64,000 nt of DNA from Candidatus Kapaibacterium sp. Its GTDB lineage: Bacteria > Bacteroidota > Ignavibacteria > Kapaibacteriales > HRBIN21. The stretch spans positions 124,001 through 188,000 of the forward strand of contig JANXCT010000001.1 of the NCBI GenBank assembly GCA_025059875.1. The letters are read 5' to 3'. Made by a program: the position numbers and the translations under genes. This document shows, one piece after another, positions 3,340 through 17,708 of the stretch (within the stretch, counting starts at the first letter, position 1; each line of letters begins with the position of its first letter). The notes under the pieces are model-generated. The model did not search any database, was not told the DNA's origin, and worked only from the letters and a program-made list of their open reading frames with translations.

Positions 3340-4080
3340 ATGGAGAAGCAAGCAGAGCAAATCCAGCGAGAAGAGCACGAGCAGACAGGGAGGGCTACGG
3401 AGGTCTTGCCTCTTAGACCGTCTATTGGGGAACGCGTGGTCGAGTGGCTGCGCAAACGGTGGAGAATTGTGGCAATTGCAGCGGCTGCGCTGCTGGTTGG
3501 CGTAGGAGGAGTGATTGCGTGGCAGGTCATACAGCGGAACCAAGCAGAGGAAGCGGCAACGCTGCTCTCACGCGTCTACTCCTACTACGACAACGGCGAC
3601 TACGAGCGAGCACTCTACGGGGACACTACAAAGTCGGTACGTGGGGAACCGGTGTACGGGCTAGAGGAGATCGTGCGCCGGTACGGGGGCACGGAGCCAG
3701 GAAAGATTGCTGCCCTCTATGCAGGTAGCGCATACCTGCTACGCGGAGAGGTGAAGAAGGCAGAACCGTATTTCGAGCTTGCTGCAAAGGCGGAGGCTCC
3801 ATTAGTCTTGGTAGGGGCGTATGCGGGATTGGCGGCCTGCCGAGAGGAGGCAGGGAAGTTGCGAGAGGCAGCCCAACTATACGAGCGTGCCGCTACGATT
3901 GGTGCACCGATTGGGCTGTCGGAGCGGTACCGTTTCTTTGCAGCGTACTGCTATGAGTTAGCCGGTGATGCGCAGAAGGCGATCGCTCTATATCGCCAGC
4001 TACTGCTAGAGAACGAGTTTTCGGACTTCGCGAACGACGCCAAGGCGGGTTTGGCTCGACTTGGCACGAGATTTGAGTAG
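3340..4080 (+). CDS. Membrane-anchored tetratricopeptide repeat protein
   Basis: A 246-residue protein with a charged cytoplasmic N-terminus of about 40 residues, one membrane helix (about residues 42-66, alanine/valine rich) and a periplasmic part of TPR-like helix pairs. The pattern (ALYAGSAYLL, AYAGLAACREEAGKL, AAQLYERAA) resembles the YfgM/TPR_21 type of tail-exposed membrane TPR proteins, which act near the SecYEG translocon in proteobacteria; that link is only a family parallel. The start has a GGGGGAGA ribosome site about 8 nt upstream. It follows tRNA-Arg by 17 nt and may be read from the same promoter at 3221. Function is not established. Confidence 0.8.
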   Translation: MEKQAEQIQREEHEQTGRATEVLPLRPSIGERVVEWLRKRWRIVAIAAAALLVGVGGVIAWQVIQRNQAEEAATLLSRVYSYYDNGDYERALYGDTTKSVRGEPVYGLEEIVRRYGGTEPGKIAALYAGSAYLLRGEVKKAEPYFELAAKAEAPLVLVGAYAGLAACREEAGKLREAAQLYERAATIGAPIGLSERYRFFAAYCYELAGDAQKAIALYRQLLLENEFSDFANDAKAGLARLGTRFE

Positions 4081-4147: not shown

Positions 4148-7100
4148 ATGGAGCGGTGGTTGCGTCTGTTTGCGCTGACGCTGACAACGGTTGGGATTGG
4201 ATTCGCACAACGTCCTGTCATTGAAGTCAGCGGGCGACTTGGACCAGACGAGGTCCGAATCTTCCTCAAGGACACGATCTACCGGATCAGCGGGACGTAC
4301 ATGATTGCCGGAACGCTGATCATCGAGCCAGGAACGATCGTCGAGTTTCTCCCGAATGGGCGCCTCATTGTCTCGGTTGGGGGGCGCATCATCGCTGATG
4401 GTTACGTCTCGGCGACGTATAACCAATTTCCCGGAGGCTGCGATCCTGCAGATTACCTCAACCCTTGTGGGTTCAGTGGGTATGCCGATTTGAACTACTT
4501 CCAGGCAGCGGCTCAAAGCACGATCATTGGAGACCCTACGATTGACCCCAACAAGTATGGAGAGATCTTCCTCGTCGACTTAGGTGGACAACCACAGCTC
4601 CAGGGACTCCCGCCAGGAAAAGCGATTATGTATGCTGCAGCTCGCCTACACTTTGCAGCGTCTGATCCGAACATCAACCGGACCCCATGGCGGCGAGCTG
4701 GCGGTGCAAGCGTTAATGTCACTCAGGCTCCAATTATCTTTCGCGGGAGGCCCGTTAATAATTTCTCGCGGGAGTGGGGACACATCATCATTTTGCCGGG
4801 GACCCGCGCTGCTTTCTTCCGGAATGTGATCTTTGAGAACTTCCGGAAAGACACAACGGTGGATCGCTTCCCGATCTACCAGCCAGACGCAGGGGAAGTC
4901 GCTGCGTTGAATAGAGAGCTCATCCAGCAAACGAATGGTAGCGGCGGAGCCATCACCAGCTTCTCGTCGCGGACGTGGCTCTTGTTATGTGAATTCCGGA
5001 ATAATACGGCTCGGTATCGTGGAGGGGCTCTACAATTGCTTCAGGCTCCCCCAGGTACCGGGGTATATCCAGCTCCAGATATCTCTAACATCCCATTCTA
5101 CCCGCAAACTGTCAATCCGTATTTGACGGAGAACGCTACAGCAGCCCCTATTGCTCAGTCTATTAGGGCAATAGACCAAGTGTATAGCAGCAACCCCGAA
5201 CCCTTGAGCAACAGCGATCGCCAAGCTTACGACGATGCACGTCTGGCAGTGCTGCTGGGACGAGTTCGGTACCTGACCTTTACGGGAAATCGTGTACTGC
5301 TGTCTAGCGTAGTCCTTCGACAGATTGCGCCGGGTGTGTGGGCGATTGTAGACAACTTAGAGAACCCAGCGCCTTTAGAGCCACAGCCTTGGAAGAACGA
5401 GGCCTACGGCGGTGCAGTATACATCGCAGGACGTAGCCCGATGGAAATTGGGCTTGGAATTAACGACTTCGAGGCTCCGAATGTGTACGACTACATCTTC
5501 TGTGATGGCAACACTGCGACAAACCTTCAGAACGACCTTAACGCGCGTGGTGCTCGTGGTGGTGCAATCTATGTCGGCAGGGGGACATCGTTGACCGTGC
5601 GAGGACGGTTCGTTTCAAATCAAGTGAGCGTACCGTTCTTCACAGATCCAAATCAGGTTGGAGCTTTGGCACAGGGTGGAGCTATCTACACTGCTACGGA
5701 TGCCGGGCGGCTCCAGGTTCGGGGTAGACAAGGAGGTGAAGCCCGGCAAGAGACGCACTTCATCGGCAACCAAGCGGGCCGTGGTGGAGCTATCTGTGTC
5801 GATACTGGGAAAGTTGACACCCGCCCCTCGCCGGTAATTGGTGGCTCTGATGCGTTGGTGGACACGAGGAACTACGGATACAACATCAAGTTCCGTAATA
5901 ACCGTGCTACGGAGCATGGCGGGGCTGTCTTCTCGCGTAGGAACTTAACGGTCTATGGTGCAGGTGGAACGGTGGGACCGCTCACTTTGTATGGTGGAAA
6001 CTACCCAGTAGAGTTTGACAACAACACTGCGGGCTTCTCTGGAGGAGCGATTTCGATTCAGCTGCCGCAGCCACTACCCATCGAGCGGCGGTACGTAAGG
6101 ATTGTACGCGCGGTGTTCACGAACAACATCGTCGGCCAGGTCCAGGGCTATGAAGCTCAGGTCCGCGGTGGTGGGGCTGTGTACACATTGAACGCTGACC
6201 TCAACGTAGTGAAGGGCGTTGAATTTCGGGCAAACAAGGCCTTCAATGGTAATGGTGGAGCAGTGTGTATAGCTCATCCGTTTACGTCATCCCATCGCTT
6301 CTTCCTGACGGACGTGGACGACGTTAACATTTTGCCATCTGGTGTAGCAATCGGCTTCACGTCTCGGGACGACATCTTCACGTGGGCTCCTGGAGCTCCG
6401 GTAGCAGATGTGCGGATGCTGACACGCTTCTTTGACAATGAAGCGATCCCTAACATGTCGCAGATGGGCTCGGGAACGACGCAGATAGGAGATATCCGGC
6501 GTCTACATCCTGGGACAAACCTGCGTGAAAACGGCACAGGACTGGGTGGGGCCATCTACATTGTGGACGAGGTTAGTATCAATCGGGCCGGACGCACGGA
6601 CTCCATCTTCTTCAACCGCGTCCGTATCCAAGGAAATCGAGCCTATACGGGTGCAGCGATCTACTCTGACAACTACAATCTGCAGCTGGTCTTCACTCGT
6701 AGCCTGATCACAAACAACACGGCGACCTCTGAAGTTGGAGCTCGGCAGAATGCTATTACTGGACCGCTCGTTGCGGGCACAAACGCTGCCTCTAGCGATC
6801 TCGCCGGAGCGGTCATATACGGTAACGTGGTTGGACCACATCCGTATGCCCGTTACCACTTTGCTGCGAACTCTATCTACGACAACACAGCCCGTTTCCT
6901 CATTCGTCTGCCTGACTATCCTGACACGAAAGGAGCGCTGGCTGGAACGGGTGTGGGAATGGGTGGAGTAGATACGCTGCAGGGGAATTACTGGGGACGG
7001 ACGGAAGCAAATGTTGTCACAATCCTACCGGTAAGTGGCCGCACGCAAGAGACCTTCTTCGTTGCGGGTGACGGAACCCGCCAACTCGGCTTCGTCCGTG

Positions 7101-10100
7101 GAGGCACAGGGAAGAATCAAGGGCCGTTCGAGTCGCGGCACCTCTACAGCTATACGCCGATACCTGTACTGAATGCTGGCGACGAGAATACCCCTGATCC
7201 GACAAGCATCCCAGAGCGCCTCCTCATGCAAGGGCTCATCTACGACATCTTCGACAAGGGAACGGATATCAAGACCGCTGACTACTCTAACCGACGGATG
7301 TCACCGATTGAGGACTTTGCAGTCGGTATCCCGAAGACACTGCGGAGGTTTACAGACCCTACCCTCCCATCCTTCAATAAGTACGTCCGACGGTGGACTC
7401 GGAATCCGTTTGATGCCGAGAGTGATCCGAACATCGGGGCACTGCAAACGGAGTTCCGGAGCCCCAAGCACCCAATTGGCTATCCGCTGTTCCTCGAAGC
7501 CCGAGCGGATTACTCTGGCTCAGCAGAGCTCAACAACAACGATCCGCGAGCGATCAACGAGACGGTCTTCTTTGTCATCAACACCAACACAGGCGACTAC
7601 ATCCGAGTGAATCTGCGGCAGACGAGCCCGACGAGTGAGGTGTTCCGAGCACGCGTAGAGCTGGTACCGGACTCGGTCAATCGTCGTCCCATAGACCGGC
7701 GGACGATCGAAGGCTTAGCGAACATTGGAACGAACCTGGCAGCCGTTCTGGCGGCGCTGCGACGAGCTCCAGACATAGAGGACCGGGCCGCACTGCAAGG
7801 GCGTAAGTACGAGGGCTTTGTTGGCGACCTCGGGGGACCGGGCTTTGGCTATGTCAACCGGATCCTGCCGGCCGATGGAGCCATCAACCCTCAGAGGGTC
7901 ACGGTATTCGCCGGCGAGCGGTACTCGGCGCTGCCAGTTCGGGTGGGAGATGTCGTTGCTGTGGTCTCGCGCACGGTCTTGTGGCAGGGTACCGTTGCGG
8001 ATGCTATCGACGGTGCCCTCATCTTTGAGGTAGGCGCAACTGTGGACCCGCCTGTGTTCACAGGGAACAAGGTGGAGCTAGAGAACATCACGCCACCGGA
8101 GCTGCGGAACATGATCTTCCTCATGGAGGACATCAGCTACCCGCGGCGACCGACGGGCCCCGGTCGAGACTCTATCTTCACTATCACGGCGGTTGACTCC
8201 AACTTGTTCTATGATCCCCGCTCCGTACTCTTCCCCGACCGGTATCCGCAGCTTGCCTATTTCTGGAGCGTACCACCGAACTCGGGTCTCTCGTACTGGC
8301 TGCAAGCGGACACCTTGCCCGCGACTTACGGGCCGTACTATGGAGCGAGGGGATATGTTGTCTTCAAAGGGCGTCCGACGAATCCGTTCGTGGTCCCAGG
8401 TGGAGAGGTAGTGACGGTGGCTGTTCGGAATTACCCGCCGAGTGCCCGAACTGTAGACTCGCTGAAGGCAGCAGGATTGAGCAACGATGTGATTGCGAGG
8501 TACATTTACCTCTACCCGCCCTATTTCAATGCTCAGGCCTACGATGGTGGCAATGCCCGCTTCCTGCAGCAGGATACTGTGGACTTCGGGAACGTAGCAG
8601 CAACAACAGTCACGTACCAATTCCGCATCTTCGTGATAGACAGCACTCCACGGTTTACCACTCTCAATGTCGCTTGTGAGCGTGATGGACTCTGGCTGGC
8701 AAACCTGACGGATTCTCTCCGCTTCAGGGTGGATGTGGATACTGACGACGAGTTAGAGGATGCTGAGGCTGGTGCACGTGGTTGGGATTTCCGTTATGGC
8801 CGTACGACGTACGGTTTCGCATCGATCACCATCCGAGATGTGCCGCCGGATACGGTTGTGGAGCCTACCACACAGGTCCGGCCGGTGTGGATGCAGAACC
8901 AGTATCTCCGTCGGTACGACAACAGTGGGCAGCCTGATCCGCTAGCAATCGACTTTAGTCTCCGCGGTCAGCTCAATGTGCGAATTGACTCGGCTACGGC
9001 AGTGCAGTTGCTGACTCCGGCGACACAATACCACAGGGCGCTCAACACCGACACGATTGTCTCCATCGTTGTCAACGATGGCCATGGTGGCGTCAATTAC
9101 TTAACGCGGCGTGTCCTTGTCAACGTGGCTCCCGTAATTCTGACCAACAGCCTGCCCGATGCAGTAGAAGACCAGGACTACAACCCGACGCTTCTCGACT
9201 CTAGTCGGCGGATTGTTGTGTACGATCCGAACTTTGGCCAAGCTCATCGGTTTGAGCTTATCTATCCTGGTGACCCGCGGGATTTCGTGCCGCGCGATCC
9301 TTGCTTCCCGGAGGCAGGGGCCTGGGATCTTCGCAACAAGAAGACGACACCGCGCTGGTTGCAGATCGATCCTGTCAGCGGCCTCCTCTACGGGACACCT
9401 GGAGTCTACGATGCTCCGCGCCGGGAGAAAGTCACCGTCCTTGTAACGGATGAGTTCGGGCTAACCCATGTGAAGGTCATTGATCTAAACGTTCGAGCGG
9501 TCAATCATCCTCCACGGTTGACGCGGATTCCGGCTGTAAGGTGCGTCGAGCAAGGGAAAGCCTATGTCGATACTATCGCTGTCGTCGACCGGGACCTCTT
9601 GCGGCAGGAGCCACCAGACGCTCTGGAGCGGCTTACGATAGAGGTCATAGAGCCAGCAGGTTTCCAAGTGAGCCCTGCAACTGTCAACGGACCGCAGTCT
9701 TCGGATACTGTTAGGATCCTTATCAGCACAACAGCACTGAATGTGAATCCAGGACCTGACGGAAAGATTACCGTTCGAGTGCGTGTGGTAGACCGGGAAG
9801 GGGCTCAGCAGGAGATCACATACAAGCTCAATGTCTCTGAGCCCACGGACTTCGTAGCACCGCTGCGGATTGAGAATCGCTTCGGCGCATTCCAGATTCT
9901 GGAGTGGGGTACAGCTCCGTTGGCAACAACTGGTAGCGATCCAAACCGTGGTGGTATCGGGAGGCTTGACTCGAACTACTGCGAGTACGAACTCCCGCCA
10001 ATACCGCCAAACGATGTCTTCGATGCTCGTTGGACTATTCCCTCCACGAATGGCACTGCGCGAAACATCTTCCCAAGGGCAGTGCCAGGAGTACCGGGGC

Positions 10101-10714
10101 TCTTGGTCTACACGGGGCGCTTCCAGGCAGGTAGTGTCACAGGAAATGCTTCGGAAGCATACCCAGTGCGGATCACTTGGAACTCGCAGGATGTGCCTGA
10201 CCGAAATGATGCAACGAGAAATCCAGCCGGCTCGACGTGGTACATCCGCGACGGTGCTTCTAACGGTAACATCTTCTCCTTCAACATGCGGACAGGAGAG
10301 GGCCGCTCCGTGCCGACGGTGACTCTGGAAAGGAATGGTGACTCGCTGACCGTTGTCATCCGTACGGATGCCGTTACCAACTTTGTGATCGTGTACGACT
10401 TAACTAGCGATGTATCCGATCCTGCTGCCACTGCCGGACCGGTAGAAATTCTCGAGAACGTACCGAATCCATTCGCAGGTACAACGCGCATCCGGTTCAG
10501 GATTGCCGAACCGTCGGCCGTGCAGCTGGAGGTCTACGATGCTCTTGGCGGCAAGGTCAAGATGCTCCTTAATGGCTTCCAGCTAGCCGGAGAGCATGCC
10601 GTTGCATGGGATGGTACGGATGATCAGGGAATGCCGGTCCCTAGTGGGGTCTATTACTACCGAGTAGTGGTTGGCGGCATGGTGGTCGTCCGTCCAATGG
10701 TGCTAGTGCGGTAA
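4148..10714 (+). CDS. Giant T9SS-exported surface protein with Pmp-like beta-helix
   Basis: A 2188-residue secreted protein. Residues 1-20 are a signal peptide (basic MERWLR, then hydrophobic to GFA, cut before Q). Residues about 263-840 carry some eleven GGA[IVL] motifs, often preceded by NN.A or GN.A, as in chlamydial polymorphic outer-membrane proteins; this predicts a right-handed beta-helix. Residues about 1670-1750 and 1786-1898 look like cadherin/He-PIG type beta-sandwiches (WLQIDPVSGLLYGTPG). Residues about 1900-2090 hold the ELPPIPPNDVFDARW module shared with two downstream genes. The last 90 residues are a T9SS type A sorting domain (VPNPF, VYDALG, WDG, SGVYYYR). It probably sits on the cell surface or is released as an adhesin or structural protein. 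It heads a run of five secreted genes; its ligand is unknown. Confidence 0.85.
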   Translation: MERWLRLFALTLTTVGIGFAQRPVIEVSGRLGPDEVRIFLKDTIYRISGTYMIAGTLIIEPGTIVEFLPNGRLIVSVGGRIIADGYVSATYNQFPGGCDPADYLNPCGFSGYADLNYFQAAAQSTIIGDPTIDPNKYGEIFLVDLGGQPQLQGLPPGKAIMYAAARLHFAASDPNINRTPWRRAGGASVNVTQAPIIFRGRPVNNFSREWGHIIILPGTRAAFFRNVIFENFRKDTTVDRFPIYQPDAGEVAALNRELIQQTNGSGGAITSFSSRTWLLLCEFRNNTARYRGGALQLLQAPPGTGVYPAPDISNIPFYPQTVNPYLTENATAAPIAQSIRAIDQVYSSNPEPLSNSDRQAYDDARLAVLLGRVRYLTFTGNRVLLSSVVLRQIAPGVWAIVDNLENPAPLEPQPWKNEAYGGAVYIAGRSPMEIGLGINDFEAPNVYDYIFCDGNTATNLQNDLNARGARGGAIYVGRGTSLTVRGRFVSNQVSVPFFTDPNQVGALAQGGAIYTATDAGRLQVRGRQGGEARQETHFIGNQAGRGGAICVDTGKVDTRPSPVIGGSDALVDTRNYGYNIKFRNNRATEHGGAVFSRRNLTVYGAGGTVGPLTLYGGNYPVEFDNNTAGFSGGAISIQLPQPLPIERRYVRIVRAVFTNNIVGQVQGYEAQVRGGGAVYTLNADLNVVKGVEFRANKAFNGNGGAVCIAHPFTSSHRFFLTDVDDVNILPSGVAIGFTSRDDIFTWAPGAPVADVRMLTRFFDNEAIPNMSQMGSGTTQIGDIRRLHPGTNLRENGTGLGGAIYIVDEVSINRAGRTDSIFFNRVRIQGNRAYTGAAIYSDNYNLQLVFTRSLITNNTATSEVGARQNAITGPLVAGTNAASSDLAGAVIYGNVVGPHPYARYHFAANSIYDNTARFLIRLPDYPDTKGALAGTGVGMGGVDTLQGNYWGRTEANVVTILPVSGRTQETFFVAGDGTRQLGFVRGGTGKNQGPFESRHLYSYTPIPVLNAGDENTPDPTSIPERLLMQGLIYDIFDKGTDIKTADYSNRRMSPIEDFAVGIPKTLRRFTDPTLPSFNKYVRRWTRNPFDAESDPNIGALQTEFRSPKHPIGYPLFLEARADYSGSAELNNNDPRAINETVFFVINTNTGDYIRVNLRQTSPTSEVFRARVELVPDSVNRRPIDRRTIEGLANIGTNLAAVLAALRRAPDIEDRAALQGRKYEGFVGDLGGPGFGYVNRILPADGAINPQRVTVFAGERYSALPVRVGDVVAVVSRTVLWQGTVADAIDGALIFEVGATVDPPVFTGNKVELENITPPELRNMIFLMEDISYPRRPTGPGRDSIFTITAVDSNLFYDPRSVLFPDRYPQLAYFWSVPPNSGLSYWLQADTLPATYGPYYGARGYVVFKGRPTNPFVVPGGEVVTVAVRNYPPSARTVDSLKAAGLSNDVIARYIYLYPPYFNAQAYDGGNARFLQQDTVDFGNVAATTVTYQFRIFVIDSTPRFTTLNVACERDGLWLANLTDSLRFRVDVDTDDELEDAEAGARGWDFRYGRTTYGFASITIRDVPPDTVVEPTTQVRPVWMQNQYLRRYDNSGQPDPLAIDFSLRGQLNVRIDSATAVQLLTPATQYHRALNTDTIVSIVVNDGHGGVNYLTRRVLVNVAPVILTNSLPDAVEDQDYNPTLLDSSRRIVVYDPNFGQAHRFELIYPGDPRDFVPRDPCFPEAGAWDLRNKKTTPRWLQIDPVSGLLYGTPGVYDAPRREKVTVLVTDEFGLTHVKVIDLNVRAVNHPPRLTRIPAVRCVEQGKAYVDTIAVVDRDLLRQEPPDALERLTIEVIEPAGFQVSPATVNGPQSSDTVRILISTTALNVNPGPDGKITVRVRVVDREGAQQEITYKLNVSEPTDFVAPLRIENRFGAFQILEWGTAPLATTGSDPNRGGIGRLDSNYCEYELPPIPPNDVFDARWTIPSTNGTARNIFPRAVPGVPGLLVYTGRFQAGSVTGNASEAYPVRITWNSQDVPDRNDATRNPAGSTWYIRDGASNGNIFSFNMRTGEGRSVPTVTLERNGDSLTVVIRTDAVTNFVIVYDLTSDVSDPAATAGPVEILENVPNPFAGTTRIRFRIAEPSAVQLEVYDALGGKVKMLLNGFQLAGEHAVAWDGTDDQGMPVPSGVYYYRVVVGGMVVVRPMVLVR

Positions 10715-10721
10715 GAGACGG

Positions 10722-10748
10722 GATGGGGGCTCCCTATCCGGGGCCCCC
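10722..10748 (+). terminator. GC-rich hairpin after the giant gene
   Basis: TGGGGG pairs with CCCCCA, and after one bulged C the stem continues CTCC with GGGG (one G-U pair) around a 6-nt loop. It starts 8 nt after the stop codon. There is no T-run, so it may be a U-independent terminator or an RNA 3' stabiliser. Confidence 0.5.
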
Positions 10749-10752
10749 CAGA

Positions 10753-10771
10753 CATTGTCTCCGCAAGAGAC
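10753..10771 (+). terminator. Second intergenic hairpin
   Basis: TTGTCTC pairs perfectly with GAGACAA around the loop CGCAA, a 7-bp stem. It lies between the GC-rich hairpin and the next gene's start, so it could instead form in that gene's 5' leader. Confidence 0.4.
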
Positions 10772-10809
10772 AAAGGAGCAAGTCTCACACAGCTTCGAGG
10801 GACTAGAAG

Positions 10810-12687
10810 ATGCAGCGAATGCTCCTTGCCACAGTGGTAGCCATGGTAACAGCGCTGGGCGCGTGGGCTCAGGTCTATGCAGAGTTCCAGCCAGCGGTCA
10901 AGGTGGGTGGGAAGCCATATGCCCCACTGACAGGAGCAACGGTATTAGATGCGGATCAGTTTAGAAGAGACCCTGCAGATACGAGTACGCGAGATCCTGA
11001 CGATGGCTATGTCATTGTCACATTGCCTTTCCTCTTCGAGTATCAAGGTTACCGCTATAGTCGGTTGGCGATCTCGGTGAATGGCTTCGTGATGCTGCTG
11101 AGGCCCGCTGAGAATCCACCGCTTACGGGTGACACTATGCCAGGGCGACTCTTCCTGAATGTAGAGCCCTTCAACGTGATTGCCCCGTTCTGGGGGGATC
11201 ATTTCTACCGGACAACTGAAGCAGGATACGTGCCGTCGCGGATTTCCTACAAAGTAGTCGGGTCTGCCCCTAACCGAGCCTTTGTTGTGGAATGGCGGGA
11301 TCTAAATATCAACGACGAGTCGCTGCCTTCGAGTGTTGCGAGCTTCCAGGTGTGGTTGTACGAGTCTGCGCGACCTGGGAACTTCCAGGGCGATATCGAA
11401 TTCGCTTATGGGCTGACGGGGTCCGGCGGTCCGGTTCAAGTGCAGGGTGCTGCTATTGGCATCAAGGGAGGATTTGGTGACTATCTCAACGGCTTGGTCT
11501 TCACAGGCGATGTGAACCAGGCACGCACCTCAACGGTGCTCAGCAGCACATGGCAGCCTTCTGGCGGGAGTGATACTGTGATTCGCTTCAACGCTATTCC
11601 ACGCCTCTTCTTGGAGGGTTGGGGTGATGGCGATGTGGATTTCTCGCAGGTCAGCAAGCATGCTGGGATGGGACAAGATCGGTTTGTTACAGTCAACGAT
11701 GTCATGCTTATCCTTCGATCGGTGGCCACCAATCGTCGGCTGGATAGCCTGAAAGGGAGACAGGCGTACCATGGTGATGTCAACCACAACGGTCGATACT
11801 ACTACTCCACGCGCAAGCTCGACAACTCAGGGGACTCGGTGTATCACCGACGGGCAATCCCGACACGGTCTCTCTACTATTGGCAGGACCTGCCGTCAGA
11901 CAACTCCCTACCCTTCGTTGGAGGTGACCCCGTGCTGTTCTTCGAGGCGACAGAGTACGACGCCGCGATCATCATGCTCTACATGGCAGCACGGGTGCCG
12001 TATTTACCGTGGTTACTGGATCTAACGGTGCTCCCTCCATATGGCCGCGGAGCAGCAGCGGCTGGCGTTGCTTCATGTCTCCGACCGTTGGAACCAGTAT
12101 GTGTTGCTCCGGGGGTATATCGCATACCGCTTAGCCCAGATGGCTTTTGGAATGGAGCCCTGGGATTCCGGGCAGAGTTCGATGGACAGGTCCTTGGGGT
12201 AGAACCCGCTTCCGGATTCGTGGACAAACTGCTGGTTTCCTACCACGACCGCCGAGTAGCAATTGCGGGTATCGGAGAATTTGTTGCTGGGGAGCCAGTA
12301 GTCTACGTTACTGTGCGAACAGAAGAGCCAGTGCTTCGGCTCAACAATGTTCGGTTCTGTGACCGGGACGTACCGGACATGGAGGTGCCTCTCGCTCTGA
12401 GCACAGCAGCAAAGGAGCGCATCGAAATCGCTCCTACACCAACCGTTGGCTCAGTGCAGTTGCGGTTCTCGGTGCCGCAATCCGGAGCTTACCGAGTGAA
12501 GCTCTACGATGCTACAGGGAGACTAGTACGCGTGCTTGCAGAAGGTGATTATCAGCCCGGGACGTACGCGGTCGAGTGGGATGGCCGAGATGCGGCTGGC
12601 CAACTCGTTGGTGCGGGTGTCTACCACTGCCGGATTGAAGGGCCAGGAGGGATCGTAGCGAACGGCTCTTTCATCCGGCTACGCTAA
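10810..12687 (+). CDS. T9SS cargo with dockerin-like and cohesin-like modules
   Basis: A 625-residue secreted protein. Residues 1-21 form a signal peptide (MQRMLLATVV to AWA). The N-terminal 230 residues resemble a beta-rich nidogen-like fold, but weakly. Residues about 269-396 contain two calcium-loop-plus-helix patterns like a split dockerin: one ends in TVNDVMLILRSVA, the other starts GDVNHNG and ends in ATEYDAAIIMLYMAARV, with insertions in both. Residues about 410-530 look like a cohesin-type beta-sandwich (ALGFRAEFDGQVLGVEP). Residues about 540-625 are a T9SS sorting domain (VKLYDATGRLVRVL, VEWDGRD, GAGVYHCR). Module calls rest on motif reading and need profile searches. It sits second in the surface island, 95 nt after the giant gene. 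Confidence 0.75.
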   Translation: MQRMLLATVVAMVTALGAWAQVYAEFQPAVKVGGKPYAPLTGATVLDADQFRRDPADTSTRDPDDGYVIVTLPFLFEYQGYRYSRLAISVNGFVMLLRPAENPPLTGDTMPGRLFLNVEPFNVIAPFWGDHFYRTTEAGYVPSRISYKVVGSAPNRAFVVEWRDLNINDESLPSSVASFQVWLYESARPGNFQGDIEFAYGLTGSGGPVQVQGAAIGIKGGFGDYLNGLVFTGDVNQARTSTVLSSTWQPSGGSDTVIRFNAIPRLFLEGWGDGDVDFSQVSKHAGMGQDRFVTVNDVMLILRSVATNRRLDSLKGRQAYHGDVNHNGRYYYSTRKLDNSGDSVYHRRAIPTRSLYYWQDLPSDNSLPFVGGDPVLFFEATEYDAAIIMLYMAARVPYLPWLLDLTVLPPYGRGAAAAGVASCLRPLEPVCVAPGVYRIPLSPDGFWNGALGFRAEFDGQVLGVEPASGFVDKLLVSYHDRRVAIAGIGEFVAGEPVVYVTVRTEEPVLRLNNVRFCDRDVPDMEVPLALSTAAKERIEIAPTPTVGSVQLRFSVPQSGAYRVKLYDATGRLVRVLAEGDYQPGTYAVEWDGRDAAGQLVGAGVYHCRIEGPGGIVANGSFIRLR

Positions 12688-12689
12688 CG

Positions 12690-13790
12690 ATGAAGAGTGG
12701 GAGGGCTAGATGGTTACTGCCCCATATTGCAGGAATATGTATTGCCTTACAGCGGTCGCAGGGCGATACCGTAGAGCTCTCCCTACAAGTGCTGGACACT
12801 GTGGATGTTTGTGGAAGGCGTGAGTGTGTCCTTGTAGTTGAGAGTAGCCCCGTGCGCGTACGAGATAGCCTTATGGGATTCAACCTTGCCATACGGTTTA
12901 ACCCCGAGAAGCTGCGCTTCCATACCATGCTAACAGCTGGCACACTGGCAGAACTGATGGAGCAGCGTGGCTTCTCAGCTCCACATGGGGAGATCCGTGC
13001 CTACGCTTTTACTCTTAGTCGAACGGTAGCTGGGTCACGTCCCCTGGTAGCCTTCCTGGGTGACTATCAACTCAAGTGCCCCGATACCACTCATGTGCAG
13101 CTGCAGTATGTAGAGTTCAACGAAGAGTTCGAGCGTCGTAGAGTGGTAGTGGTAGACACGCTCCCGAAGACCATAGAAGCCCGTATTCTCGATGCTCCGA
13201 CGAGGATTCTTGGGACACAGGTCACCCCAAGCGAATGGCGGGTGACGGAAGTCGATACAGTCTTCACGCTATCTGTGAGACTTGACTACGACACAGCGCA
13301 TGAGCTCGGGAGGGTTGCGACCTACGTCGTTGGCATGCCCCATTGGCTCCGATTCGTAGACGCCTCTTCAGATAGCGTAACATGGGAGCAGCGAGGTGAT
13401 ACTGGTGTGGTGAGGTGGACTGCTGAGCACGGTGATCCTCTCTCCCTGTCGTTTGCGGTTGTTGAGAGGCGTTCAGACACAGCCGTGCTGTACTTCTCGA
13501 CTGTACCTCTCGAGCCTTGTGCATGCGTAGTGCGTTGGTCGGTGGATTCGGTCAACATCATCAACACGACCCCTGTTGGCGTCTTGGGGCAAGGGGAAAT
13601 CGTAGGAGAGACCTTCCCGTGCGGTGAGCCTGGAGAAGAGGCTTACCTCTACGATTTGCAAGGGCGACTGCTGAGCAGACAGGTTGTTGGATACGGCCAT
13701 CGTTGTCTGGATCTCTCGGGACTTCCTCGAGGGGTCTACATCCTGCAGTATCGAGGGAAAGCGTATCCCATAGTGCACATCCATCAATGA
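12690..13790 (+). CDS. Secreted cohesin-like protein with T9SS tail
   Basis: A 366-residue protein starting 3 nt after the previous stop codon, so the two are probably co-translated. The N-terminus (MKSGRARWLLPHIAGICIAL) is a plausible signal peptide. Residues about 40-150 have the alternating pattern of cohesin-like domains (MGFNLAIRFNPEKLRF, RPLVAFLGDYQLK). The middle shows only beta-rich sequence. The last 50 residues (YLYDLQGRLLSRQ, LPRGVYILQY) are a short T9SS-type sorting domain. No catalytic motif was seen. It is probably a structural or binding partner in the surface island. Confidence 0.65.
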   Translation: MKSGRARWLLPHIAGICIALQRSQGDTVELSLQVLDTVDVCGRRECVLVVESSPVRVRDSLMGFNLAIRFNPEKLRFHTMLTAGTLAELMEQRGFSAPHGEIRAYAFTLSRTVAGSRPLVAFLGDYQLKCPDTTHVQLQYVEFNEEFERRRVVVVDTLPKTIEARILDAPTRILGTQVTPSEWRVTEVDTVFTLSVRLDYDTAHELGRVATYVVGMPHWLRFVDASSDSVTWEQRGDTGVVRWTAEHGDPLSLSFAVVERRSDTAVLYFSTVPLEPCACVVRWSVDSVNIINTTPVGVLGQGEIVGETFPCGEPGEEAYLYDLQGRLLSRQVVGYGHRCLDLSGLPRGVYILQYRGKAYPIVHIHQ

Positions 13791-13822
13791 AGGTCAGTTG
13801 AATTGCACCGAGGGGAAAGGCA

Positions 13823-16800
13823 ATGCAGTGGCGGTCGACTCTGTGGTTGGTGACTGCGTGGGGTATGGCCATCGGTTCGCTGCTTTATGGACAACCGTAC
13901 GACGTTAGGCTGCCGGTACTGAGCCTAACGGGCAGTGGTCCGGGCTACGATCCGCAGGTATATCCCGGAGGATTCATCGTCGTCCCGCAGCAGGCAAGCC
14001 CACGACAGCCGCGTGAGCTAGTCGTCCCAGTGTACATACGTAACTGCTGGGTACCCTCTACCCATCCGCAGTGGGGTAAAGTTTGGCCTATCTACAGCTT
14101 TGGCTTCAAAGTGGAGTACGATGGGAGCCTCCTTGAATTCCTTGGACTTCAGAAGGTCGGCCCCAAAGGTGATAGCGTGCTAGCCAAAGACTTTAGCTTT
14201 GAGTTTAACGATGCTGCGGTCAGCGGTTCCGGGATGATAGGGGCCCTAGCAGCGTGGCACAACTTAGGAGATGCCTCTCCTGAGAGGTGGCGGCGAGTGC
14301 GAATCGTAGCAAGTTCGGCAAAACCTCTGCCTCCTAGTCCCGCTGGGCCCGGGCAGGACCCCTGGGATCCGACAGTGCAGTGCCAAAGTCGGCGATATGT
14401 TCCTGTAGTCTACCTCCGCTTTCGAATAACAGGGGTCGCAGGGGGCATAGCGCGACTGATGCTGTCCAACGATACGTTGATGTACAACGATCTCAACCTT
14501 GGCGTCTTCCCTGCAGAGCCTTTCCCCACGAATCCATTAGACTCGCGATATCGGGCTGTTGTAACGTATCGTGCGGGAGGAGCTTCAGGAAACGTTCCAT
14601 ACGAGGGGTTGGAGGGAGTGGACAACCGTGGGTTGCTGCCAGTAGCTAATCTCTTTCCGAGTATGCCGGGGATGATATACGTCGTCATTACAGAGATCCC
14701 ACAAATTGGGTTTGAGCCTCGTATGGGGGTGGATGCTGTCGTGCGCCAAGTGGCTCCAACAGGGGAAGAGTGGGAGGTCATCCACCCGATTGTGTTGGAT
14801 TCAGCATCGTGGACACGAGGTGTCTTCTATGGACGGAGAGAGTTGGTCGTGACGAACGAGGTTGAGGGAACAAGGCTAACGGACATTGTTGTGGAGTCAA
14901 ACGCCCGTTGGTTAAAGTTCCAAACTTTCGCTGCGGCCCCAGGGGACAGAAATCCGATTCCAACCATTACGCGGTCTGGTGTCATTGACTACATAGACCG
15001 AACGTTGGGTGAGACTATTCTGCAGGACATTCAAAACAATCCACTAGTGCCCTCTCGGCCGCAAAACTTCCGAATCCTCTGTGATCCGCAGGAATTGCCG
15101 CAGAATACGGATGCAGCAGGGATTTACGTGGGCTATATTACCTTCCGAACTCTTTCAGCTGCCATATCGCCGGTTCGGCTACGGGTGACCTTCATCTATG
15201 TGCGTAACCCGGTCGAGCCGAACAACGATCCAAGGAACTTGAGCGTCCTTGGGAGGGGAATCCGTATCACAGTGTCAAATTCTGCTACACCCTCGCAGTC
15301 TGTTACCTTGGTGTTCGGTTTAGGGATTCGGGCAACGGACGGGATTGACACTCTATTTGGAGAGACGATCTACGATGCTCCTCCGGTTGCTGGGAGCTTC
15401 TACGCCCGATGGTATCTGGATGGAGTTGCCCGAGTGCCGCAGGGCACGGCACCCAATGGGCTGCGAGACTTGGTGGGTATCTACGCCTCGCGGGATATCC
15501 GCAACGTGTTCTCCGACTCGACGGTCGTCTTCTTGTGTCGGTTTGACGCAGGTGGAGCCATCAACTACCCGGTAGTACTGACCTGGGACACTACTGACTT
15601 CCCTGCAGGTGCGAGGCTGTTCCTGAGGGATACACTCAACGGGACCATCTTTGGAGTGGATATGCGTCAGGCCACCCCGGCAGGCGGAAGCAGAATGTCT
15701 TACACCATTACAGATGCGAGGATTCGTTCGTTTGTGATTGAGTACACTTACCCGCTCGTCGTCCAGTACCCCGTAATCCAGAAGGGGTGGAACTTACTCT
15801 CCCTTCCTGTGCGACCTGCGAATCCATACTGGCGAACGGTCTACCCGAAGGCAATTAGCATTCCCTTCTGGTTCTCCCAGAATCAGTACCAGCCAACCGA
15901 GAACTTGCAAGTAGGCTACGGGTACTACGTCAAGTACAGCGACGATGTTGACCGGCAGATTGCTGGTGTTCGGCTCCTGCGCATAGACCGCAACGATAGA
16001 GTACTGCTCTACGACGGCTGGAACACCATAGGAGGACTATCTGTACCCGTCAGCATCGAGCGCATCCAGTTTGAGAATTACGGTGCCGATCCGTTGCCGC
16101 AGCGAGTTGGGGGCGTGTATGGGTACCGGACTGATCGAGGCTTCGTGGAAGTTTCTGAGCTCGTACCGGGGTTGGGCTACTGGATAAAGATTCGTGGCAA
16201 GGGGTATCTGAAGCTTGAAGCTCCTGGTTCTCCAAGAGTTGCGGCGTCAAGAGATGAGTATCGCGACAGGATTCTCGAAAGCAGTAGCCGTGTTATCGTC
16301 CGAGATGCCGAGAGCAGAGAGGCAGCTCTCTACCTCAGTAGAGAGCCTGTGGATCGGGAGCGCTTTGAGCTGCCGCCGATCCCGCCCCATGAACTCTTCG
16401 ATGTCCGCTTCTCGGAGGGTACGTACGTAGAAGATGCGCCCTCGCCGATAGTGCGCTTCCAGGGAGTCACTTATCCGGTGGTGCTGCGGTTGGAAGGCTC
16501 TACGGCCGCAGATTATGTGGTCGTAGACGCTACAGGACGTACCTGGGGTGCGTTGCGGAACGGCAGTGAAGTGCAGATATCCGATCCAAGCGTAGTGGCC
16601 GTTTGCCTTCTGCAACAGAGTCCGACAGCGGGTATCAGCATCAATGTCAAGCCACAGCCGATTGTTGAGCACGGAGGTGTAGTGGAAGTTGGGCTTCCTG
16701 CGAATCTGCCAGTGACGGTGAAGCTCTACACCCTCCTCGGCGAGGAGGTTGAGACAGTGTACGCTGGTCCCCTGGCTGCGGGAATCCATGCCTTCTCACT

Positions 16801-16891
16801 ACCTACAGCAGTATTGTCGAATGGGCAGTATATCCTGCGCGTTAGTGCAGGGACGGAGGAGCGTGTGATTCCAATTACTGTCGTGCGCTGA
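13823..16891 (+). CDS. Multidomain T9SS-exported surface protein
   Basis: A 1022-residue secreted protein with GAGGGGAAAGG before its ATG. A signal peptide ends near YGQ (about residue 25). Residues about 50-230 resemble a cohesin-like sandwich (YSFGFKVEYDGSLLEFLGL). Residues about 479-650 form one copy of the shared module (TDGIDTLFGETIYDAPP, YARWY, NGTIFGVDMR). Residues about 655-790 are the 'GWNLLSLPV ... GLGYWIK' repeat often found in T9SS cargo. Residues about 816-936 are a second, shorter module copy (ELPPIPPHELFDVRF). Residues about 940-1022 are a sorting domain (KLYTLLGEEVETVY, SNGQYILRV). Its role is unknown; the domain sharing ties it to the giant first gene and the fifth gene. Confidence 0.75.
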   Translation: MQWRSTLWLVTAWGMAIGSLLYGQPYDVRLPVLSLTGSGPGYDPQVYPGGFIVVPQQASPRQPRELVVPVYIRNCWVPSTHPQWGKVWPIYSFGFKVEYDGSLLEFLGLQKVGPKGDSVLAKDFSFEFNDAAVSGSGMIGALAAWHNLGDASPERWRRVRIVASSAKPLPPSPAGPGQDPWDPTVQCQSRRYVPVVYLRFRITGVAGGIARLMLSNDTLMYNDLNLGVFPAEPFPTNPLDSRYRAVVTYRAGGASGNVPYEGLEGVDNRGLLPVANLFPSMPGMIYVVITEIPQIGFEPRMGVDAVVRQVAPTGEEWEVIHPIVLDSASWTRGVFYGRRELVVTNEVEGTRLTDIVVESNARWLKFQTFAAAPGDRNPIPTITRSGVIDYIDRTLGETILQDIQNNPLVPSRPQNFRILCDPQELPQNTDAAGIYVGYITFRTLSAAISPVRLRVTFIYVRNPVEPNNDPRNLSVLGRGIRITVSNSATPSQSVTLVFGLGIRATDGIDTLFGETIYDAPPVAGSFYARWYLDGVARVPQGTAPNGLRDLVGIYASRDIRNVFSDSTVVFLCRFDAGGAINYPVVLTWDTTDFPAGARLFLRDTLNGTIFGVDMRQATPAGGSRMSYTITDARIRSFVIEYTYPLVVQYPVIQKGWNLLSLPVRPANPYWRTVYPKAISIPFWFSQNQYQPTENLQVGYGYYVKYSDDVDRQIAGVRLLRIDRNDRVLLYDGWNTIGGLSVPVSIERIQFENYGADPLPQRVGGVYGYRTDRGFVEVSELVPGLGYWIKIRGKGYLKLEAPGSPRVAASRDEYRDRILESSSRVIVRDAESREAALYLSREPVDRERFELPPIPPHELFDVRFSEGTYVEDAPSPIVRFQGVTYPVVLRLEGSTAADYVVVDATGRTWGALRNGSEVQISDPSVVAVCLLQQSPTAGISINVKPQPIVEHGGVVEVGLPANLPVTVKLYTLLGEEVETVYAGPLAAGIHAFSLPTAVLSNGQYILRVSAGTEERVIPITVVR

Positions 16892-16931
16892 GGTACGTAC
16901 TTAGGGAAGCAAGCTGGGAGAGATGCTAGAG

Positions 16932-16966
16932 ACCGGGCGGTGTCGGGAGAGGCGGCACCACCCGGT
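16932..16966 (+). terminator. Strong hairpin after the fourth surface gene
   Basis: ACCGGGCGGTG pairs with CACCACCCGGT (11 positions, one C/A mismatch) around a 13-nt loop. It lies 40 nt after the stop codon and 25 nt before the next start. There is no clear T-run. It is a likely terminator or processing site that would lower expression of the fifth gene. Confidence 0.55.
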
Positions 16967-16991
16967 ACTATTCTCTGGGGTCTAGGGAGGA

Positions 16992-17708
16992 ATGAAGTGG
17001 TGGGCCTTAGTCGGGGGAGTGCTCTGCTACAGTTTGGCAGGTAGAGCCCAGCAATCCGTTCTCATTCCGTTTACCGTTGCAAATGAGTTTGGGGAGTCAG
17101 TGGTGTTGACTGTTGGGGTTGATGAGCGCGCCACGGATCGGATAGATACCCTGCTTGGTGAGCGTGAGCTTCCGCCCCTGCACCCTCCACAGGATGCATT
17201 CCATGCTGTACTACGCTTCTACGATACAGTGGACGGAGAGTGGAAATGGACGTACCGGGACCTTCGTCCACTGCGGTCCGAAGCTTTTTCGGTAGAGCAT
17301 CGCATCCTCGTCCAGAGGGGTAGAGGGGATACGGTCGTTCTTCAGTGGAGCTATCCTCTTCCGGAACATGTTGACTCTGCCGTGCTTTCAGATCGAGTCA
17401 CAGGCATCCTCGTCCGCTTTCGATTTGATCATGCCCAGCGGGCGGTCATTACCAACCGATTTTTGGAGGAGTTCGTGCTCACGATCTGGTATCGCTTCCC
17501 TTCTTCGATAGAGGACAATGTCCGTTTGGAGCTCTCTTCCCGACCCTGGTGTCGGTGGATTGTTCTCTACGACCTCATGGGCCAGCAGGTCTGGCAGGGG
17601 AGCGGTTGGATTCCGGTGGAGCTCCAAGGAATTGGGAAAGGGGTGTACGTGGCAACTGGGTACGATTGTGGGGGGCGGAAGGTGCTCCGCTTCCTCTGGA
17701 GGCAGTAG
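16992..17708 (+). CDS. Small secreted protein with shared ELPP module
   Basis: A 238-residue protein with a signal peptide (MKWWALVGGVLCYSLAGRAQ) and a ribosome site (AGGGAGG, 2-8 nt upstream). Residues about 25-170 match the module of the first and fourth island genes: DERATDRIDTLLGE, ELPPLHPP, then a beta-rich stretch ending in a conserved F.LTIWY. The C-terminus (WIVLYDLMGQQVWQG, GKGVYVATGY) is a short sorting-domain-like tail. It is essentially one module plus the tail, so it gives the simplest version of the unknown domain. No enzyme motif was seen. Confidence 0.65.
   Translation: MKWWALVGGVLCYSLAGRAQQSVLIPFTVANEFGESVVLTVGVDERATDRIDTLLGERELPPLHPPQDAFHAVLRFYDTVDGEWKWTYRDLRPLRSEAFSVEHRILVQRGRGDTVVLQWSYPLPEHVDSAVLSDRVTGILVRFRFDHAQRAVITNRFLEEFVLTIWYRFPSSIEDNVRLELSSRPWCRWIVLYDLMGQQVWQGSGWIPVELQGIGKGVYVATGYDCGGRKVLRFLWRQ

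Follow-up and report, generated by a model that had tools for sequence, protein, structure and literature searches.

The window analysed here, a stretch of 64,000 nucleotides from a Candidatus Kapaibacterium genome, contains five consecutive genes (g1 to g5) which in our view more probably than not specify a surface assembly of Kapabacteria that is ancient, non-enzymatic, normally present in one copy and displayed by the T9SS. In this assembly a dockerin in g2 would clamp the cohesin of g4, g3 or both, and the complex would hold the giant g1. The five open reading frames all lie on the forward strand at 4148-17708, and consist of g1 (4148-10714, 2188 aa counted from the ATG), g2 (10810-12687, 625 aa), g3 (12690-13790, 366 aa), g4 (13823-16891, 1022 aa) and g5 (16992-17708, 238 aa), giving 4439 aa in total. 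The original prediction of about 4,400 residues in five secreted proteins encoded on one strand is thus borne out, with N-termini that look like signal peptides in all five, as called by eye from the sequence without a predictor.

Profile searches identified FlgD_ig/TIGR04183-type tails in g1 and g2, and weak TIGR04183 matches in g3 and g4. The C-terminal domain of g1 (10448-10711) matches PF13860 (E 6.7e-11) and TIGR04183 (E 7.5e-5). The tails of g2 and g4 align with the C-terminal domains of PorU, PorZ and mirolase when AF2 models are compared using VIA: for g2 (12406-12684) with PorU 6za2 (Z 11.7, rmsd 2.6 over 92) and PorZ 5m11 (Z 10.6), and for g4 (16631-16888) with PorU (Z 11.4) and the mirolase domain 8qb1 (Z 11.0). 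No T9SS tail was found by profile search in the window copy of g5, and TIGR04183 is matched by 12 of 20 g5 orthologs, so that the predicted tails are present in g1 to g4 and recognisable for g5 only in its orthologs. The proteins therefore have the features of T9SS type A cargo, since each combines a signal-like N-terminus with a C-terminal domain of the conserved type and the genome has a T9SS, although for g5 this holds via the orthologs only. The source genome (1.97 Mb in 33 contigs) encodes PorV-family proteins, the best scoring 298 bits, as well as several T9SS tails, and T9SS export of the cassette proteins is therefore plausible.

The spacers between successive genes in the window are 95, 2, 32 and 100 nt; the gap between g2 and g3, predicted as 3 nt, is 2-3 nt. 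Hairpins had also been predicted between the genes. The g4-g5 spacer (16892-16991) does form a stable RNA hairpin, which folds better than shuffled sequences (z -3.7, 0/200), and the signal in the g1-g2 spacer is weak (z -1.8). No terminator-like sites were found in the cassette spacers, and the length of the g4-g5 spacer varies among relatives, even inside the genus. The g4-g5 hairpin is therefore probably incidental, and a regulatory role for the hairpins was rejected because the spacer is not conserved.

The largest protein, g1, is indeed the beta-helix giant that had been predicted. Its signal-like N-terminus is followed by a right-handed beta-helix of the Chlam_PMP type (PF02415, E 2.1e-16, three stretches), a middle part that is beta-rich and Ig/cadherin-like, including a He_PIG domain at 9341-9493 (PF05345, E 2.7e-5), and a C-terminal part comprising a module that resembles one found in g4 and g5 and then the FlgD_ig tail. 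The protein terminates in this tail, without an autotransporter barrel. It is approximately 50% identical to its distant relatives over most of its length, rising to approximately 70% near residues 900-950, and the alignment is nearly gap-free. Two other T9SS cargo proteins were used for comparison: the first has no relative beyond its species except for one tail match, and the second does occur widely, as a member of a multigene family whose identity is around 30%. Separately, the protein G000:C1:204067-208116 and its paralogs form a family of T9SS-tailed proteins of about 1350-1450 aa, often multicopy per genome, whose relatives turned up in all of the order's genomes that were searched.

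The second protein, g2, carries a NIDO-like sandwich, a dockerin with split loops, a further beta-sandwich and the T9SS tail, in that order (AF2 model, pLDDT 88.6). The match of the N-terminal domain (10867-11604, AF2 pLDDT approximately 90) to PF06119 is weak in the window (0.12), and four of 21 orthologs match, the best at 1.6e-5. In family f9 (L058, L066 and L068) this domain is duplicated, giving proteins of 900-950 aa. The dockerin-type domain occupies residues 271-404 (11620-12021), the most conserved part of g2, and has an insert in each of its calcium loops. The insert in loop 1 (11647-11685) is about 11 residues long here and 11-19 in orthologs, while that in loop 2 (11797-11946), which contains a predicted beta-hairpin, has 50 residues here and 12-88 in orthologs. 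The loops read D275-x-[DN]277-x-[ST]279-(insert)-V293-[TS]294-x-x-D297 and D323-V-[ND]325-H-[NSD]327-G328-(insert)-[AV]380-[NTD]381-x-x-D384. Positions 275, 297, 323 and 384 are invariant in 51 orthologs, and positions 277 (D/N), 279 (S/T) and 325 (N/D) are kept in 49, 51 and 51 of them, respectively. Together with the helices at 295-307 and 382-392 in the AF2 model, this is the pattern expected of F-hands, with ligands D1, [DN]3, [DNS]5 and D12 followed by helices.

The unedited g2 sequences do not match PF00404 (Dockerin_1) in 21 orthologs (E 0.1) or in L158-L160. When both inserts are removed in silico, the sequence scores above the PF00404 cut-off over nearly the full length of the profile (E 2.0e-5 for the window). 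The same treatment of six orthologs brought three above the cut-off (2.8e-7 to 1.7e-5), the others giving 1.4e-4 to 0.009. Removal of the second insert alone gives 6.9e-4 for the window and 6.4e-7 for the ortholog L067. These values are biased in that the junctions were picked with the motif in view; as a control, the junctions were shifted, and the match was lost. Because the match appears only after removal of the inserts, we describe g2 as dockerin-type with interrupted loops, rather than as a canonical member. The beta-sandwich that follows (residues 418-531, 12061-12402, AF2 pLDDT over 90) had been proposed to be a cohesin. VIA, which scarcely probed the N-terminal and dockerin parts of g2, aligns it with many Ig-like structures and with a single cohesin entry, 2w1n (cohesin plus Fn3), at Z 9.1 and an rmsd of 18. 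The original prediction for g2 is thus upheld for the dockerin, by the ligand positions and the edited PF00404 match, and is not confirmed for the cohesin; by analogy, this sandwich might be X-module-like.

Cohesin-type domains had also been predicted in g3 and g4, and here the prediction stands, through the orthologs for g3 and through the fold for g4. The third protein consists of a cohesin-type N-terminal domain (12741-13193), a second beta domain, a CxC motif that supplies two of four conserved cysteines, and a T9SS-like tail. PF00963 is matched by two of 21 g3 orthologs (best 1.3e-4), no match being found in the window copy, and whole-genome scans with the same profile hit the g3 position at four island loci (G013, G048, G007 and G035). 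In one genome of family f18, the protein that takes the place of g3 (L160:7537-8745) matches PF00963 at 2.3e-12 in two stretches and ends in a T9SS tail, whereas no Cohesin match is seen for the corresponding proteins of L158 and L159. On this sequence evidence we assign g3 as a cohesin protein.

The fourth protein has a cohesin followed by further beta domains, a g5-like module, GWN-type repeats and the T9SS tail, and its AF2 model has a mean pLDDT of 84.5. Residues 29-291 (13907-14695) adopt a cohesin fold in this model: approximately 18 of the top 50 VIA entries are cohesins (Z 9.9-10.8), with an rmsd mostly of 2.5-2.8 Å over about 130 of some 143 residues, which is close to full coverage of the domain. 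Tail matches occur in the same list at similar Z, as expected from a second domain. The corresponding PF00963 match is marginal, at 0.061 in one of 20 orthologs. The N-terminal domains of g3 and g4 show a hint of similarity to each other (hhalign P 3e-4). The original prediction of modules common to several members also holds: g4 residues 475-640 (15245-15742) align with g5 residues 18-164 (hhalign E 2.1e-12), making g5 a secreted single-module protein that is a copy of the g4 module, and a motif resembling this module can be read in the sequence near the C-terminus of g1.

Other searches were less informative. A Pfam search with the single window proteins gave no cohesin or dockerin match; PDB profile searches with the g2, g3 and g4 alignments returned only tails and FlgD; and Foldseek on whole models was swamped by stacks of Ig-like domains. 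Alignment of the short domains by hhalign, against each other and against a small cohesin set, gave mostly no signal, and this comparison is considered to be without power, since two cohesin-type sets failed to match each other.

The cassette is strongly conserved within the order Kapabacteria, of which ten families were sampled. All 20 of the 20-kb regions fetched from relatives, which come from nine of these families, keep the five genes in the same order and on the same strand. In a collection of 76 named loci, which partly overlaps the first set of relatives, the full run of five is present in 56, the contig ends first in 17, and g1 to g4 are found without a recognised g5 in three. Neither of the outcomes named as counting against the original prediction, a lack of cohesin and dockerin similarity and a scattering of the genes in close relatives, was obtained. 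Searching with the g4 alignment retrieved records named Candidatus Kapabacteria/Kapaibacterium, Bacterium HR21 and the like. Both g2 and g4 have full-length orthologs across the order, mostly at about 37-47% identity outside the genus, while g3 and g5 diverge fast (about 20-30% identity). Of 60 relatives, all have a strong g4 match except for family f7 of the order, represented by ten genomes, and G053, a fragmented genome in which the N-terminal part of g1 is present. In the f7 genomes orthologs of g1, g2 and g4 were not found, only tails. When 296 genomes from across the phylum were sampled, the only families outside the order with a g4 that was full-length or largely so in part were f16 and f18, which belong to the same class; their neighbourhoods have g1, g2, g4 and g5 in the usual arrangement, with a diverged gene at the position of g3. 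This is most simply explained by a cassette that was present in the ancestor and later lost in f7. Tree distances for g1-g4 follow those for the dehydrogenase gene next to the cassette (r 0.69-0.83), which is consistent with vertical descent, and the recurrence of the block across the order indicates that it is not a chance arrangement. One assembly, KatS3mg039, contains two cassettes (L113 and L140), in one of which g2 is interrupted by a stop codon, and may be an assembly chimera.

A TPR_21 gene adjoins the cassette upstream (3340-4080, forward strand) and lies beside g1 in 19 of the 20 regions. It was considered as a sixth member and rejected, since it is retained in f7, f15 and f19 genomes that lack the cassette; we therefore treat it as a neighbour and not a part.

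Dockerins are best known as ligands of cohesins, and the calcium-dependent pair is best known from cellulosomes. The cassette had been predicted to be non-cellulosomal, and in agreement with this no enzyme or CBM family scores above cut-off in the five window proteins and none is recurrent in orthologs of g2 to g4; given that no catalytic domain was found, it is not an ordinary cellulosome. In the assembly that we favour, each protein would be taken by its signal peptide to the periplasm and then by the T9SS to the surface via its C-terminal domain. There g1 would form a long stalk of beta-helix and Ig-like domains, g2 would present a calcium-loaded dockerin, probably stiffened by the packing of its loop inserts on neighbouring domains, and g3 and g4 would act as cohesin sockets. 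Binding of the g2 dockerin to the cohesin of g4, g3 or both would clamp separately anchored proteins into one complex, which may hold a jointly displayed g1 either for attachment or to form a layer of the envelope. A more far-reaching version is put forward tentatively, in which this is a dedicated, order-defining surface machine: the dockerin with its split loops would hold both cohesin proteins and the giant beta-helix together as a load-bearing appendage or coat, and the cohesin-dockerin bond would serve surface architecture instead of polymer digestion. Some observations do not sit easily with an assembly: family f7 lives without the whole set, which counts against it, separate anchoring by the T9SS could make a clamp unnecessary, and the fast evolution of g3 and g5 is odd for tightly fitting subunits.

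The genomes also encode cohesins and dockerins outside the cassette. A protein of 435-545 aa (L162:2195-3583 in G008) with a signal-like start, a cohesin-like domain, a dockerin with an insert between its loops, and a tail has orthologs in 35 of 60 relatives. It was not found in the source genome, f2 or nearly all of f7, and was rejected as an obligatory partner because of its absence from the source genome and f2. Since such chains carry both domains, the g2 dockerin may act in its own chain or with partners outside the cassette, and intramolecular use is a serious rival to the clamp. The five genes would then encode co-transcribed, individually anchored T9SS proteins with related roles, their dockerin and cohesins being structural or intrachain and not joining the five. 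The frequency of single T9SS-tailed chains with both domains in these genomes fits this explanation, as does the fact that every member seems to bear its own tail; it is nevertheless somewhat unlikely in view of the strict gene order, seen in nine of the order's families and in two families from outside, and of the complementary plug (g2) and sockets (g3 and g4) in adjoining genes.

Alternatively, the cohesins of g3 and g4 could be a small surface scaffold that recruits dockerin proteins encoded elsewhere, as in a cellulosome. The source genome does encode a secreted protein of 679 aa (G000:C6, L165:3391-5427) with a canonical dockerin at its end, no evident T9SS tail and an OmpA-like protein among its neighbours, and at least one dockerin protein is present in most relatives. 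We consider recruitment improbable, because the cassette has no detected enzyme domain, the 679-aa protein has no obvious enzyme as read by eye from its sequence, and the distribution of dockerin proteins does not follow that of the cassette, with none detected in f2. A role not as cargo but as part of the T9SS machinery, or of the complex that attaches it at the surface, would suit the almost housekeeping-like conservation of g1 but is very unlikely, since f7 has T9SS-type tails and no cassette, and all members resemble cargo.

The preferred assembly has several partial precedents. The cohesin fold is known outside the cellulosome in the non-cellulosomal modules of Archaeoglobus (2xdh) and Clostridium perfringens GH84C (2w1n), both of which are among the g4 matches; the present case differs in having plug and sockets in an order-conserved five-gene cassette exported by the T9SS, with no recognised enzyme. 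The nearest published proposal is the T9SS-linked cellulosome-like complex of Ca. Stygibacter (Cloacimonadota), which likewise places dockerin proteins on the cell surface together with a cohesin protein bearing a T9SS-type C-terminal domain, but also has a tandem-cohesin scaffoldin with CBMs and dockerin-bearing enzymes (PMC8542988), whereas the cassette lacks both tandem scaffoldin and enzymes. An insertion in the first EF-hand loop, as in g2, occurs in the type II dockerin of Acetivibrio cellulolyticus ScaA, but is just four residues long (PMC5141474). In the XMod-Doc:Coh complex of Ruminococcus flavefaciens (dockerin family 4a), which serves cellulose adhesion, the duplicated F-hand motif is also interrupted by inserts and lies beside another domain, and its three inserts contact the neighbouring X-module and stabilise the bond when it is under load (PMC4266597). 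The inserts of g2 (11-19 and 12-88 aa) are instead inside the two calcium loops, and a sandwich and T9SS tail follow.

Kapabacteria are known mainly from metagenomes. No papers on their surface structures were found in the open-licence literature, nor any description of the cassette under Kapabacteria and T9SS, cohesin or dockerin and T9SS, or Ignavibacteria cohesins. The presence of the five genes in order over nine families, together with the housekeeping-like conservation of g1, suggests a core surface structure of these bacteria. If the dockerin and cohesins do bind each other, this would extend cohesin-dockerin assembly in T9SS bacteria from digestion to architecture, and would provide new, possibly heat-stable binding pairs.
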